Shown here one piece after another: positions 10,956 to 15,899 of a stretch of DNA of 64,000 nt; position 1 is the stretch's first letter, and each line of letters opens with the position of its first letter. The DNA lies in the NCBI GenBank assembly GCA_016788425.1, contig JAEURQ010000004.1, forward strand, positions 496,001 to 560,000, read 5' to 3'. The translations under genes and the position numbers were made by a program. The notes beneath the pieces were generated by a model that did not search any database, was not told where the DNA came from, and saw only the letters and a program-made list of their open reading frames with translations. Source of the stretch: Chthonomonas sp. (GTDB lineage Bacteria > Armatimonadota > Fimbriimonadia > Fimbriimonadales > Fimbriimonadaceae).

Positions 10956-11864
10956 TTACCGACCCGCGGCCTTGTGCAACCGCTCGCGGATGGCGGCCCA
11001 TTCCGGCGAATCCGGCGGCATCTCAATGCCGATGCTTTCGAGCTTGCGTTGGTCGAGTTGAAACAGCGCGTCGTAAAGCTCGAACGCGTATTCGGCCGGA
11101 TCGTAGCTCATGATCAGCTGGTTCGCGTTTTGGCAAGTGCCGAAGCAGAGCCCGGGCTGCTGCGGCGTGAGTTTGTCCACCAGCACCACCGGCGTATCCG
11201 GCGAATAGTGCCGCAAGTATTGCCCCGGCGCGATGCGCGGCCCGTCCACGGGACCCACGGCCACCGGAATGCCCAGCGCATCTTCAAGCGCCGCTCGGCT
11301 CACCTGGCCCTCGCGCAGGACGCGCGGTTGATCGCCGATCAGGCTGAGAATGGTGGATTCGATGCCGACCCGGCTCGCGCCGCCATCAAGAATCACCGTG
11401 CTGGCGGCCCGAATCTCCGGCGAAAGGTGCTCAATGCGGGTCGGCGAAAGGTGAGTAAACACGTTGGCGCTGGGCGCGGCGAGCGGCCGTCCGGAGCGCA
11501 GACAGAGTTCGCGGGCGAGCGGATGGTTCGGGACCCGAACGGCCACCGTCTCCAATCCGGCGGTCGTGAAGGTGCTCACGGAAATGGCTTTTGGCAACAC
11601 CAGCGTCAGCGGCCCTGGCCAAAAGCGGCGCGCGAGTTCCCATGCCACGTCAGGAATGTCGCGAGCGACGAGCGGCAAATCTTCAGCGCGAGCAATATGA
11701 ACGATCAGCGGATTGTCGCTGGGGCGACCTTTCGCCGCAAAAATCCGTTGCACCGCTTCATCGCTGGTGGCGTCGGCGGCCAAGCCATACACGGTTTCGG
11801 TCGGCATCACCACCAACTCCCCGCGCACAATGGCGGCGGCGGCCAATTCTAACTGCTCATTCAT
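10956..11864 (-). CDS. tsaC: L-threonylcarbamoyladenylate synthase (Sua5 type)
   Basis: 302 residues. It makes threonylcarbamoyl-AMP from threonine, bicarbonate and ATP for the t6A37 modification of ANN-decoding tRNAs. The YrdC domain is clear (MPTETVYGLAADATSDEAV, IFAAKGRPSDNPLIVHI, the KxR...SxN signature, and PSANVFTHLSPT). The C-terminal Sua5 extension (about 215-302) classifies it as the long form. The start at ATG 11864 overlaps the aroE stop by 4 bases. Confidence 0.93.
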   Translation of the reverse strand: MNEQLELAAAAIVRGELVVMPTETVYGLAADATSDEAVQRIFAAKGRPSDNPLIVHIARAEDLPLVARDIPDVAWELARRFWPGPLTLVLPKAISVSTFTTAGLETVAVRVPNHPLARELCLRSGRPLAAPSANVFTHLSPTRIEHLSPEIRAASTVILDGGASRVGIESTILSLIGDQPRVLREGQVSRAALEDALGIPVAVGPVDGPRIAPGQYLRHYSPDTPVVLVDKLTPQQPGLCFGTCQNANQLIMSYDPAEYAFELYDALFQLDQRKLESIGIEMPPDSPEWAAIRERLHKAAGR

Positions 11865-12670
11865 GATGTCACGGCCTGCATCATCGCCTCGCGCGGAGCG
11901 GGTTGCTGCAACCACCATTCAAATGATCGGGCGGCTTGCGCCACAAGCATATAGCGACCATCCACGGTTCGGAATCCGGCCAACGCCGCCTCGCGCAACA
12001 GCGGGCTCGGTAAGTCGCCATAGATCACGTCGTAAACCAGCGCGCCCGGCTTGGGTTGACCCCACGGAATATCCATGGAATCGTTGCTGAGCCCCGCGCT
12101 CGTGGTGTTGAGAATGAGGTCGAAACCTGCTACGCTCGGCTGCGCCAAAAACTCGGCCCCGACCTTGTCGGCCAGAGATTCCGCCTTGCTCGCGGTGCGG
12201 TTGTAAATCGCGAGTTCGTAACCCGCCTCGGTAAGCACTCGCGCTAGCGATTGCGCGGTACCGCCTGCTCCAAGCAGCAATACGCGGCCTTGCGCCGGCA
12301 CCTTAAGCGAGCCGAGCGAATCCAAAAATCCTTGCCCGTCGGTGTTGGTGGCTCGCCGGGTGGCGAGTTCGATGGTGTTGGCCGATTCGAACTTCCGGCA
12401 CTCGGCGTCGGCGCTCTCCGCCCAGGCGTAGGCTTCGAGTTTAAGCGGCAGGGTGACATTCACCCCGCGATAACCGAGTTCCTGCAGACTCGCCATCGCC
12501 TCGTTGAACTCCTCGCGCGGCACGTGAATTGCTTCGTACCGTAGGTTCAAGCCCAACGCCTGATACGCCGCCTGGTGAATGCGCGGCGACCACGAGTGGC
12601 CAATGGGGTCGCCGACGACGGCAAAATCGCCCGGCATGGCTTGCTGCCAGTACGTTCCGCCGGTGATCAC
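11861..12670 (-). CDS. aroE: Shikimate dehydrogenase
   Basis: 269-residue NADP-dependent enzyme reducing 3-dehydroshikimate to shikimate in chorismate synthesis. It shows VVGDPIGHSWSPRIHQAAY (substrate-binding S-x-SP), NVTLPLK (catalytic Lys), ANTI, NTDGQGF (catalytic Asp) and the Rossmann LLLGAGGTAQSLARVL with NRT. I chose GTG 12670, which overlaps the upstream stop as GTGA, matching the coupling seen throughout this run. ATG 12637 (MPGDFAVVGDPIGHS) is an equally plausible family N-terminus. Confidence 0.93.
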   Translation of the reverse strand: MITGGTYWQQAMPGDFAVVGDPIGHSWSPRIHQAAYQALGLNLRYEAIHVPREEFNEAMASLQELGYRGVNVTLPLKLEAYAWAESADAECRKFESANTIELATRRATNTDGQGFLDSLGSLKVPAQGRVLLLGAGGTAQSLARVLTEAGYELAIYNRTASKAESLADKVGAEFLAQPSVAGFDLILNTTSAGLSNDSMDIPWGQPKPGALVYDVIYGDLPSPLLREAALAGFRTVDGRYMLVAQAARSFEWWLQQPAPREAMMQAVTS

Positions 12671-13758
12671 TTCGCTCTCCGAAACGCCCAGAGCCGCTGG
12701 CCCAGGAAGTTGCACACCGCCCCGACGGCGGTGGCGACGAACGTCGCGACGAAGAGGCTGCGGTTCGGATGGCCCGGCAACACGTTGTTGAGCGAGCCCG
12801 AAATCAGCGCGTTGATGATGAGCACCGAGATCGAAAGAATAAAGAAACGCCGGACCTGTTGCCGCATTTCGTCCTTGCCGTGGATACCAAACGTCCAGCG
12901 TCGATTCCAATAAAAGCTGTTGAGAATGGCGATACACCCCGCCAGTGCCGCCGCGGGGTACACCGCCGCCTTGGCCGGCTCCTTGATGTGGCTCAGCGCG
13001 GCGGGGAAGTGCTCCAGCATCCAGCGACCGACGGGCTCGGCCAGCAGCTCGCCGTTCCAATGCGCCACCCGCAACAGCAGAAACCTTATCGTCATGTCGA
13101 TGGCGAACGAGCTTCCGCCGACGATGAGGAACTTCATCACTTGCCGGACGATTCGCCGCTGGAAAATCCCTTCGCGCGGCACAATCGGCAGGTCATCGTC
13201 TTCCTCTTTCAGGGCTTGATACAGCCGCCCGGTGACCAATCGCTCGGCTCGTCGAGAAATGTGGCGCGTGCCGGCGAACTCGCTTTCGCCCATCTGTCGA
13301 ACCCAAATCGTCGCGATGCCGCTGCGATTGCCGCCGAGAATGTCGGTAAAGAGTTGGTCGCCGATCATCAGCGTTTGCGCGGGCTCCGAGTTGAATTTCT
13401 TCATGGCCGCCAGGAACATCTCGCGGCTTGGCTTAAACTTGCCGCGCATCGCCTCGATGCCAAGAATCTCGCTAAGGCGCGCCAGTCGTTCGGGCCGCTT
13501 GGTGTTGCTGATGATGCAAAGTTGCAACCCGGCCGCCTTGGCGTCGGCCACCCACGCCGAGACTTCGGGCGAAAACTCCTCGCCGCGCCACGGCACCAGG
13601 GTGTTGTCCACGTCGAGCAAGACCAGTTTGTAGCCGCTCGCGGCGATTTCACTCGGCAAGAGGTCGGTGATGTGATGAATCGCCTCGCTCGGGCACAGCT
13701 TGCGCAGCGGCCCACGGATGCCCGCCTGCTGAAATTTGCCCGTGCGAAAAGTTCTCAG
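12667..13758 (-). CDS. Fusion of YqeG-like HAD phosphatase with GtrA-like membrane domain
   Basis: About 363 residues. The N-terminal part resembles YqeG/GEP4 HAD-IIIA phosphatases, which in other organisms can dephosphorylate phosphatidylglycerol phosphate: LLDVDNTLVPW (DxD motif), IISNTKRPERL (motif II), KPSREMF and MIGDQLFTDILGGNRSG. The C-terminal part (from about FLIVGGSSFAIDMTIRF) has four hydrophobic segments of the GtrA/DPMS family, which moves polyprenyl-phosphate-linked sugars. No ATG/GTG/TTG lies upstream of TTG 13659, yet the frame is open and encodes the conserved family N-terminus (LRKLCPSEAIHHITDLLPSE). A CTG at 13758 sits 8 bases after AGGGG and 5 bases after the mltG stop, so I take it as the start. 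The minimal TTG version spans 12667-13659. Confidence 0.75.
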   Translation of the reverse strand: MRTFRTGKFQQAGIRGPLRKLCPSEAIHHITDLLPSEIAASGYKLVLLDVDNTLVPWRGEEFSPEVSAWVADAKAAGLQLCIISNTKRPERLARLSEILGIEAMRGKFKPSREMFLAAMKKFNSEPAQTLMIGDQLFTDILGGNRSGIATIWVRQMGESEFAGTRHISRRAERLVTGRLYQALKEEDDDLPIVPREGIFQRRIVRQVMKFLIVGGSSFAIDMTIRFLLLRVAHWNGELLAEPVGRWMLEHFPAALSHIKEPAKAAVYPAAALAGCIAILNSFYWNRRWTFGIHGKDEMRQQVRRFFILSISVLIINALISGSLNNVLPGHPNRSLFVATFVATAVGAVCNFLGQRLWAFRRAK

Positions 13759-13763
13759 TTGCC

Positions 13764-14771
13764 CTACCCCTGTTCGCGAGCCGCTCGCATGGCCGCCCGC
13801 GCTTTATTGATATTACTCAGATGGCTCCCGTAATCCGTCGAAAACAGGTGGAACTGGGTGGGTAGCGCCACATAAAAGAAGTAGTTATGCGACTCGGGCT
13901 TGAGCGCGGCCATTACGCTGCGTGCGCTCGGCGAGCAGATCGGGCCGGGCGGCAGACCGTCAATCAAGTACGTGTTGTACGGCGACTTGACCGTGTTCAC
14001 CACGCCCGGACCAAGGTTCTTCCACACCTGCAGCGCGTAGAGCACGGTCGCGTCAATCTGCAGGCGCATGCCCTTGCGGAGGCGATTTTCGATGACACCC
14101 GCCACGCGCGGTCGCTCCTCATCCTTCGCCGTCTCGCATTCCACCATGCTGGCGATGTTCACCAGCCGAGCGATGTTCGCGCCTTTCGGAAGCTCCTTCG
14201 CGATGCGCTGATCGAACGTTTTGAGTTGAATCTTGATCGTCTCAAACGCGCCGATCATCGGCGGCAAATCGTAGGTATCGGGGTAGAGATAGCCCTCCAA
14301 CGTGTTCTTCGGGAGCGGAAAGCTGACGTACTTTTGAAACTTCTCGGGCTGCTTGACGAGGTCCACATATTCGCCCTTTTTGCAAACGCCTTTCGCTTCC
14401 AGGCGATCGGCCACGCGGGCGGCCCACCAGCCTTCGGGAATGCGCACCATTTGCTTGAGCGGCGAGTTCAACGCCTTGAACAAGTGATCGGCGGTCATGC
14501 CCGGCTGCACCTCAAAAGTGCCGCTGCGAAACGCTTCGTACTTGCCCTTCACTTTGGCGTACAGGTTCATCGCCATCGGGTTCTTGATCACGCCGAGCCG
14601 CTGCATTTCGGCCATCGCCGCGTTAAACGACTTGCCGCTGTCAAAGCGAATCAGCTTCTTGTCGCCCGGTGCGGTTGGGCCGATTTCTTTGCTGACCCAG
14701 GCACCGCCGCCAACCACCGACGCCAGCCCGAGCACCAAAATGCCGCCAAAGATTTTCTTAACTTTGCTCAT
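13764..14771 (-). CDS. mltG: Endolytic murein transglycosylase, YceG family
   Basis: 335 residues with one N-terminal membrane helix (about 8-27) and a periplasmic LysM-like plus catalytic YceG domain. MltG cleaves nascent glycan strands and sets their length. Family motifs: LEGYLYPDTY, the catalytic-Glu segment ASMVECET, LQIDATVLYAL, SPYNTYLIDGLPPGPI and the C-terminal FHLFSTDYGSH. ATG 14771 is preferred over the TTG one codon earlier. The start lies inside the ruvX C-terminus (14-base overlap), reproducing the common ruvX-mltG pairing. Confidence 0.93.
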   Translation of the reverse strand: MSKVKKIFGGILVLGLASVVGGGAWVSKEIGPTAPGDKKLIRFDSGKSFNAAMAEMQRLGVIKNPMAMNLYAKVKGKYEAFRSGTFEVQPGMTADHLFKALNSPLKQMVRIPEGWWAARVADRLEAKGVCKKGEYVDLVKQPEKFQKYVSFPLPKNTLEGYLYPDTYDLPPMIGAFETIKIQLKTFDQRIAKELPKGANIARLVNIASMVECETAKDEERPRVAGVIENRLRKGMRLQIDATVLYALQVWKNLGPGVVNTVKSPYNTYLIDGLPPGPICSPSARSVMAALKPESHNYFFYVALPTQFHLFSTDYGSHLSNINKARAAMRAAREQG

Positions 14772-15159
14772 CAAAAAACCGTTCGAGAATGATCAGGGCG
14801 GACTGGCCATCAATTGCTTTGCGTCGCTGGGCCGCGGTCCACTCGGTGTTCGCCAATCGCGACTGCGCTTCCACTGTGCTCAACGCTTCGTTGACCTCGA
14901 TGACCTCAAAAGCGAGGTCGCGAATGTGTCCGGCTAGTTGGCGACAGATGCGTGCCTGCCGATCATCCTTGCCTCCCAAAGGTACCCCCACAACCACCAC
15001 CGTGGCTTGCTCGCGGCGGGCGACATCGCCAATCGCTTTGGCGTCGGTGGCGAGTTTTCCGCTCGCCTTGAGAGCGGGCCGTACGGCCAAAGCCAACTTG
15101 CTTTCGCCGACCGCCAGCCCAATCCGCGCGAACCCAAAATCAACGCCGAGCGCCCTCAT
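14758..15159 (-). CDS. ruvX: Putative pre-16S rRNA nuclease / Holliday junction resolvase-like (YqgF)
   Basis: 133-residue RNase H-fold protein of the YqgF family, implicated in 16S rRNA 5' maturation. It shows LGVDFGFARIGLAVG (first catalytic Asp), VVVGVPLGG, and the VNEALSTVEAQ segment where other members have DER-T/STxEA. The last aspartate is within AIDGQSALIILERFFDE. The DERL consensus appears here as NEAL, a slight deviation. The start at ATG 15159 overlaps the upstream phosphatase stop (ATGA). Confidence 0.9.
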   Translation of the reverse strand: MRALGVDFGFARIGLAVGESKLALAVRPALKASGKLATDAKAIGDVARREQATVVVVGVPLGGKDDRQARICRQLAGHIRDLAFEVIEVNEALSTVEAQSRLANTEWTAAQRRKAIDGQSALIILERFFDEQS

Positions 15160-15899
15160 CGAAAGGTCCGCTCCACCCAATCCGCCAGCCCCGGCGCAAA
15201 GCTAATCGCCTCGGGGCCGGCCTTCCCGCCCGCGTAGTTGGTGCACATCCCGCCCGCCTCGGCGACAATCAATCGCATCGCGGAAATGTCGTACGGCTGG
15301 ACCAGCGGGTCCACCATCAGCGGGGCGCGCCCGCTCGCCACCATCGCGTGGCCGTAAGCGTCGCTCCAGGTGCGCAAGCCTTGGTAGGTGTCGGCCAAAT
15401 CCAGCAGCGGGTCGAGCTTGCCCTGGTCCCGCAAGCGCGTCGGCGCGCCACAGCACAGCATGCACCGCTGAGGATCAATCTCTTGCATCACCTGAGCCGG
15501 ACGATGCTGGTAGTAAGCACCCTCGCCGCGCTCCGCGTAGAGCAACTCGTCGGAAGCAGGGAAGTACGCGACGCCCACCACGGGATCGCCGTCTTGCTCA
15601 AAACTCAGCAACGTGCTGAACAGCGGCACGCCGCTCATGTACGACTTCGTGCCGTCAATAGGGTCAATCAGCCATTGCTGCGAGCGGTCGCCGCTGGCAC
15701 CTTCTTCTTCGCCGTAGATGCCGTGCTCCGGATACCACTTGCGAATCTCGTCGCGGATAAGAGCCTCGGCTTGTAAGTCGGCAATGGTCACCGGCGACTG
15801 ATCGGCCTTGAGCTGAATCTCGGCGTTGCGGAAAAACTGCAAGGTCGATTTGCCGCCCATCACCGCCGTGTGAATGGCGAATTCAAGCAAGGGTGACAT
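15156..15899 (-). CDS. Inositol-monophosphatase-family phosphatase (histidinol phosphatase candidate)
   Basis: 247 residues of the Mg-dependent, Li-sensitive IMPase superfamily. Metal-site motifs are GEEEG, WLIDPIDGTKSY (DPIDGT) and the C-terminal YDISAMRLIVAEAGG with its conserved Asp. The substrate could be inositol phosphate, histidinol phosphate or another sugar phosphate; the SDAYGHAMVASG segment resembles HisN-type members. It is the promoter-proximal gene of the 16-gene minus-strand run and starts at ATG 15899, 20 bases from the divergent hydrolase gene, so promoters for both must lie in or overlap that gap. Confidence 0.88.
   Translation of the reverse strand: MSPLLEFAIHTAVMGGKSTLQFFRNAEIQLKADQSPVTIADLQAEALIRDEIRKWYPEHGIYGEEEGASGDRSQQWLIDPIDGTKSYMSGVPLFSTLLSFEQDGDPVVGVAYFPASDELLYAERGEGAYYQHRPAQVMQEIDPQRCMLCCGAPTRLRDQGKLDPLLDLADTYQGLRTWSDAYGHAMVASGRAPLMVDPLVQPYDISAMRLIVAEAGGMCTNYAGGKAGPEAISFAPGLADWVERTFR

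Follow-up and report, generated by a model that had tools for sequence, protein, structure and literature searches.

A YqeG-type phosphatase fused to a GtrA-type membrane domain in the Fimbriimonadaceae, and its suggested place in a lipid-linked pentose pathway

Introduction

The window analysed here is a stretch of 64,000 nucleotides from the genome of Chthonomonas sp. (contig JAEURQ010000004.1; Fimbriimonadaceae, Armatimonadota), in which a single gene joins a HAD phosphatase of the YqeG type to a membrane domain of the GtrA/DPMS type. The question raised by this locus is why these two domains should share one polypeptide, and on which lipid they would act. The comparisons below suggest that a phosphatase has merged with a lipid-linked-sugar carrier in a single bacterial family and, judging by the gene neighbours, that the resulting protein may finish and export a lipid-linked pentose like that of the mycobacterial cell wall. 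The part assigned to the GtrA half is well supported, and the substrate of the HAD half is what we infer from its surroundings.

Two sets of genomes were compared, the genome of the window (G000) with 60 relatives (61 in all), and a wider set of 291 genomes of the phylum. The family of the window, the Fimbriimonadaceae, is designated f1 and its sister family f5, while f2 to f5 all belong to the same order.

A single intact frame encodes both domains

The fused gene, its two domains and the surrounding genes are as follows.

12667..13758, minus strand: fused gene, YqeG-type HAD phosphatase followed by GtrA/DPMS membrane domain, 363 aa, probable CTG start, TGA stop at 12667
13204..13758, minus strand: HAD phosphatase domain, residues 1-185, delimited with the AlphaFold2 model; residues 22-185 match TIGR01668 (YqeG) with 127.3 bits (cut-off 89.1)
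12670..13158, minus strand: GtrA/DPMS membrane domain, residues 201-363, four long helices; residues 263-359 match PF04138 (GtrA) with 75.2 bits (cut-off 26.1)
13767..13771, minus strand: AGGGG, putative ribosome site, 8 nt before the CTG
13764..14774, minus strand: upstream gene mltG, ending 5 nt before the CTG; TIGR00247, 168.3 bits (cut-off 103.4)
11861..12637, minus strand: aroE, downstream neighbour, ATG start seen; TIGR00507, 208.7 bits (cut-off 200.2)
14758..15180, minus strand: ruvX, conserved neighbour by synteny; TIGR00250, 55 bits
10956..11918, minus strand: tsaC-like gene, conserved neighbour by synteny; TIGR00057, 185.4 bits

A sequence-only reading had placed both domains in one frame, preceded by mltG and followed by aroE. 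This is borne out, as no stop codon interrupts the frame and the matches to both domains and to both neighbouring genes exceed their curated cut-offs. The fused protein also matches the GEP4-type profile PF09419 (PGP_phosphatase; 35.2 bits, cut-off 20.4), while the HAD-PPPRS model PRK08238 (NF006088) is absent among the best 25 of its 28 model matches. Its GtrA half is the one GtrA match in G000. The CTG at 13758 (window positions 13756-13758) is likely the start codon; the first in-frame ATG, GTG or TTG is a TTG at 13659, from which conserved residues would be removed, and a TTG, GTG or ATG is found at most two codons from the CTG position in 12 of the 12 relatives examined. AGGGG can serve as a ribosome site, and the copy listed above may act as one.

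The conserved motifs and structural elements of the protein are the following.

13600..13614, minus strand: HAD motif DVDNT, residues 49-53; D49, D51 and T53 in 58/58 aligned YqeG domains
13501..13509, minus strand: HAD motif SNT, residues 84-86; S84 and N85 in 58/58, T86 in 55/58
13432..13434, minus strand: HAD motif lysine K109, 58/58
13342..13362, minus strand: HAD motif GDQLFTD, residues 133-139; G133, D134, Q135, T138 and D139 in 58/58
13159..13203, minus strand: linker, residues 186-200, poorly ordered in the model (pLDDT <50 at 187-189)
12685..13155, minus strand: membrane helices, residues 202-231, 266-289, 298-326 and 331-358, from AlphaFold2 models

The motifs presumably have the roles usual in HAD enzymes, D49 being what we take to be the nucleophile, with D51 accompanying it in DVDNT. 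The catalytic residues D49, D51, S84, K109, D134 and D139 are intact in every aligned YqeG domain, and the conserved HAD residues are identical across fused, split, standalone and GtrA-less forms (58/58 at the catalytic sites). Residues F210, G214, D221, N285 and F351 of the GtrA half are invariant in 51/51. Mean identity among 36 fused proteins is 47% in the HAD half and 37% in the GtrA half, the former being the slower to change. The AlphaFold2 model of the whole protein (24 input rows) has a mean pLDDT of 90.4 and a pTM of 0.67, and that of the membrane half alone (8 rows) a pLDDT of 84.2. Both place an extra loop (residues 232-265), with a short helix at 240-250, between membrane helices 1 and 2.

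The fusion is a feature of one family

Within the set of 61 genomes, 32 of the 37 f1 genomes have a single match spanning both halves; G017 has two matches, both in one frame, the halves lie in two frames in G008, G027 and G036, and G029 has YqeG only. The fusion was found in none of the 24 genomes from other families of the order. A profile search of the 291 phylum genomes, based on an alignment of 29 fused proteins (A1), gave the same picture: 75 of 85 f1 genomes are fused (73 over the full span, G017, and G145, where the gene is cut by a contig end), five have yqeG and gtrA as separate neighbours (G008, G027, G036, G139 and G161), two have kept YqeG without GtrA (G029 and G158, genomes of 1.5 Mb, the absence being judged by PF04138), and three, 73 to 89% complete, have no match of either kind. 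The two-domain architecture sought across genomes is therefore present in most of the family, and this recurrence of an equal fused frame rules out a frameshift, chance or an assembly artefact as the cause of the fusion. Outside f1, no fusion is found among the matches listed for the 206 other phylum genomes, where weak cases are possible.

Seven loci of named relatives (L104-L110), among the best 80 of 588 loci in the A1 search, also carry the fusion, and are labelled as Fimbriimonadaceae, Fimbriimonadia or Armatimonadetes MAGs; a search of the named genomes' contigs with a single fused protein as query gave no matches. G163 contains two fused copies (contigs C97 and C155) in an assembly with 4% contamination, and one of them may be on a foreign contig. 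The small size, long branch and missing GtrA of G029 and G158 mark them as reduced genomes. Among the literature matches listed, titles and abstract openings contain no YqeG-GtrA or HAD-GtrA fusion, subscription journals being outside this scope. As far as these searches go, a HAD phosphatase on a GtrA domain is a new combination, while a soluble enzyme on a GtrA-type membrane domain and a HAD domain on a pentose-pathway membrane protein are each already known.

Origin of the fusion

The order ruvX-mltG-yqeG-aroE is present in 3/3 outgroup loci (L188-L190). In f2-f4 neither gtrA nor the gene for decaprenyl-phosphate phosphoribosyltransferase (PPPRS; searched with NF008977 at E 1e-10) adjoins yqeG in any of five loci, and in f2 and f3 gtrA adjoins PPPRS, away from yqeG, in the 4/4 loci examined. 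The order in f5 is yqeG-PPPRS-gtrA-aroE in 6/6 loci on single contigs, with which G050, where the parts are on two contigs, is consistent. In f1 the order is mltG, fused yqeG-gtrA, aroE and tsaC. As mltG and aroE have long adjoined yqeG, and flank it also in genomes without gtrA there, they are uninformative on glycan recycling, and the earlier proposal that they signal glycan-linked lipid recycling is ruled out.

Where the two genes are split, the stop codon of yqeG shares bases with a possible start codon of gtrA in G008 and G036 (TTGA), G027 (ATGA) and G161 (GTGA), so that separate, overlapping and fused genes form a graded series across the genomes. A tree of ruvX, mltG, YqeG and aroE, built from merged match envelopes after removal of gappy columns and with moderate supports, places f5 next to f1 as its sister group. 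Outside the fused clade (support 92), the two genera with split genes, g8 and g27, group together (87), and a basal place of g29, which has a long branch, is supported by 60 to 96. G139 is nested within the fused clade, and its split genes are accordingly a later fission. The order of events from overlapping to fused is likely. A PPPRS-gtrA pair would first have ended up between yqeG and aroE; PPPRS would then have left, and yqeG and gtrA would have overlapped before they merged.

The GtrA half and the pentose pathway

GtrA and PPPRS are both present in 58 of the 61 genomes, and both are missing in the same three (G029, G053 and G054). Since G054 is only 73% complete, and both genes could fall into a single assembly gap in G053 (91%) should they lie side by side as in its relatives, the argument from joint loss rests on one lineage, G029, which lacks DprE1 as well as PPPRS. 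NF008977 is matched above its cut-off by two of three PPPRS proteins of relatives that were scanned. The PPPRS of the window's genome (G000:C2:314886-315731) scores 209.4-210.4 bits, below the equivalog cut-off of 234, and matches the DPPRS structure 8j8j at E 2.6e-34. In G000 the PPPRS gene forms one operon (L084 8257-11241), away from the fused gene, with those of a DprE2-like SDR and a DprE1-like oxidase, consecutive genes either overlapping or lying almost end to end. The DprE1-like protein scores 281.8 bits, below the equivalog cut-off of 500, and all of its top PDB matches are DprE1 (4aut at 9.3e-58), whereas for the DprE2-like protein the DprE2 model (91.5 bits) is not the top SDR match.

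DprE1 (E 1e-25) is found in 35/37 f1 and 7/8 f5 genomes and in 0/16 genomes of f2-f4, and judging by coordinates, 24 of these 35 f1 genomes have it no more than about 3 kb from PPPRS. Because of this distribution the arabinose form of the lipid should be made in f1 and f5, and the ribose form in f2-f4. There are two kinds of DprE1, one of 427-456 bits, encoded away from PPPRS in nine f1 genomes, and one of 128-299 bits in the rest, possibly owing to replacement by transfer.

The operon in G000 adjoins a sugar transferase gene (PF02397) and an exosortase gene (PF09721), a setting that hints at an exopolysaccharide or a sorted surface protein as the target of the pathway; a weakly matching Wzy_C-like gene and a DUF3485 gene are also there (L084 8257-19153, contig C2). 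At the f2 locus L048 the gtrA-PPPRS pair adjoins an exosortase and a DUF3485 gene. Taken together, the genes suggest that Armatimonadota have a pentose pathway of the mycobacterial kind, and this company lends good support to the GtrA half as the carrier of a pentose (ribose or arabinose) linked to polyprenyl phosphate. For the GtrA protein Rv3789 itself, the carrier function has not been shown directly, according to the available part of the account in PMC11127046.

The HAD half and its substrate

The polyprenyl-phosphate pentose pathway requires a 5'-phosphatase, which in mycobacteria is a non-HAD enzyme, in the parts of the sources at hand; in Citrobacter, as the available text of PMC11127046 has it, a HAD phosphatase domain fused to PPPRS takes off the 5'-phosphate. 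No phosphatase was recognised in the PPPRS cluster of G000. Owing to this missing step and to the gene order, the HAD half, which is encoded beside PPPRS in f5 and sits on the carrier in f1, would be the obvious candidate.

The explanation we favour, tentatively and at a little short of an even chance, is that the fused protein is a membrane enzyme serving the polyprenyl-phosphate pentose pathway with two domains, a HAD 5'-phosphatase that keeps an older role and a GtrA carrier, and that it was formed by the route outlined above. Visible in the sequence are one protein with both domains intact, and PPPRS and DprE1 in the genome. By homology, PPPRS, encoded elsewhere in the genome, would put ribose-5-phosphate on polyprenyl phosphate; the cytosolic, tethered HAD half would remove the 5'-phosphate at the membrane, and the GtrA half would bind the polyprenyl chain and carry the lipid-linked pentose across. 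DprE1/DprE2 would convert ribose to arabinose before or after this transfer, a point which is disputed for mycobacteria as far as the available literature text goes; if epimerisation followed the transfer, the two fused steps would be consecutive. Since G029 and G158 keep YqeG without GtrA, the HAD half would retain an older role independent of GtrA, to which recruitment to the pentose pathway was added. A more specific version appears doubtful. In it the HAD half would cleave the 5'-phosphate from polyprenyl-phosphate ribose-5-phosphate and pass its product directly to the attached GtrA half, export being thereby restricted to finished lipid; YqeG, in a phylum mostly without the PgsA family, would then be a polyprenyl-lipid phosphatase rather than a PGP phosphatase.

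Several observations speak against the HAD half as the 5'-phosphatase. It is a canonical YqeG with the residues of standalone YqeG, G029 retains YqeG though it lacks GtrA, PPPRS and DprE1 (and G158 though it lacks GtrA), yqeG is not beside PPPRS in f2-f4 (5/5 loci), and the genomes usually have three PAP2 phosphatases, next to which the non-HAD nature of the mycobacterial enzyme, in the partial account available, has to be set. These observations support a serious rival, which we place only a little lower than the favoured explanation, namely that operon neighbours have fused without shared chemistry. An ordinary YqeG with its own substrate would be joined to a pentose-lipid carrier, the fusion would fix co-expression and tethering, and a PAP2 enzyme would remove the 5'-phosphate as in mycobacteria. 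The identity of YqeG residues in fused and separate forms, the retention of YqeG in G029 and G158, the presence of PAP2 in 61/61 genomes (only one in G029) and the tolerated fission in G139 all agree with it. However, two of the three PAP2 matches in G000 lie >150 kb from PPPRS and weakly resemble undecaprenyl-diphosphatase models, and the fusion persists in 75 of the 85 genomes. A PAP2 adjoining PPPRS was rejected as the pathway phosphatase, as two of the three lie elsewhere, though a distant one could still act.

That the HAD half is a membrane-tethered PGP phosphatase (GEP4/PGPP1-like), with GtrA moving another lipid, is improbable. The PF09419 match would suit it, as would the lack of PgpA (none above cut-off in 61/61), the CdsA-type CDP-diacylglycerol synthase family (PF01148) in 56/61 relatives, and the complementation of yeast gep4 by an algal homologue, reported in the part of the source available. 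Yet PF01066 (CDP-alcohol phosphatidyltransferase, the PgsA/PGP synthase family) is found in 0/61 relatives, with 14/14 control genomes positive, and in 33/291 phylum genomes, none within this order, an absence which speaks for that family alone, a PGP synthase of an unrelated family being possible. A strict DNA pattern for the PF01066 motif gave single hits in only three of the 61 genomes, in a frame of 159 aa that matches no Pfam family (G048), opposite a 451-aa frame (G016), and out of frame within a 356-aa frame (G004), and none of them resembles the family. PGP phosphatase was rejected as the main reading because of the lack of PF01066, and the available text of PMC5080769 leaves the physiological role of Bacillus YqeG undetermined. 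Phosphatidylglycerol-phosphate as the substrate, one of the two lipids named in the sequence-only reading, is not supported in view of these counts. Its idea that dephosphorylation is coupled to carrier movement survives in direction, the gene neighbours pointing to a polyprenyl-phosphate pentose as the lipid instead of PGP; overall, the domains, single frame, neighbours and direction of that reading stand, and its PGP substrate and glycan recycling are not supported.

The model of the membrane domain alone matches the dolichyl-phosphate-mannose synthase (DPMS) structure 5mlz with Z 14.7, rmsd 2.5 and 127 aligned residues, against Z 6.2 for the next-best protein other than DPMS, and the GtrA half is thus predicted to have the four-helix fold of the DPMS membrane domain. 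In DPMS the polyprenyl chain lies on helix 4, according to the accessible part of the description. A solved bacterial GtrA is not among the structure matches listed for the domain, which is no proof of absence. The likeness to DPMS, and the shared order of soluble enzyme then membrane domain, would also suit a GtrA-type half that docks the phosphatase on polyprenyl phosphate and is not a carrier, but this is quite unlikely, as the GtrA domain stands alone beside PPPRS in f2, f3 and f5 and hence works there without a HAD half, and docking and carrying are compatible.

Implications

Should the favoured explanation, a two-domain enzyme of the pentose pathway, be correct, it would give YqeG a concrete candidate substrate, fill the 5'-phosphatase gap in a DprE1-type pathway outside actinobacteria, and provide a natural fusion in which GtrA carrier function can be tested. 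The phylum is largely without the PgsA family though CdsA-type genes are common among the 61 relatives, and the membrane lipids of the group merit chemistry.

Comparison with known systems

The whole HAD half, with all its conserved residues, is like the YqeG family (TIGR01668; GEP4/PGPP1-like HAD, PF09419), and the gene adjoins aroE as in several Firmicutes loci. The fused protein differs in its added C-terminal four-helix membrane domain, and in belonging to an order in which no PGP synthase family PF01066 was found. With the GtrA family, in particular Rv3789 of Mycobacterium tuberculosis, it shares the PF04138 domain and the association with PPPRS and, for f1 and f5, also with DprE1, but here the domain sits behind a phosphatase and has the extra loop between helices 1 and 2. 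Rv3789 has reportedly been proposed as the DPA/DPR carrier. The DPMS of Pyrococcus furiosus (5mlz, 5mm1) likewise consists of a soluble enzyme followed by a GtrA-type membrane domain, the enzyme being a glycosyltransferase there and a HAD phosphatase in the fused protein.

In Citrobacter youngae, ORF15 PRP-PPPRS also joins a HAD phosphatase to a pentose-pathway membrane protein, although, in the available text of PMC11127046, the HAD sits on the transferase and not on a carrier, apparently belongs to another HAD family, and the carrier is of the MATE type. Of the mycobacterial decaprenyl-phosphate arabinose pathway (Rv3806c, Rv3807c, DprE1, DprE2 and Rv3789), PPPRS, DprE2-like, DprE1-like and GtrA components are all present here; there the phosphatase is a separate non-HAD protein, whereas here the candidate phosphatase is a HAD fused to the carrier.
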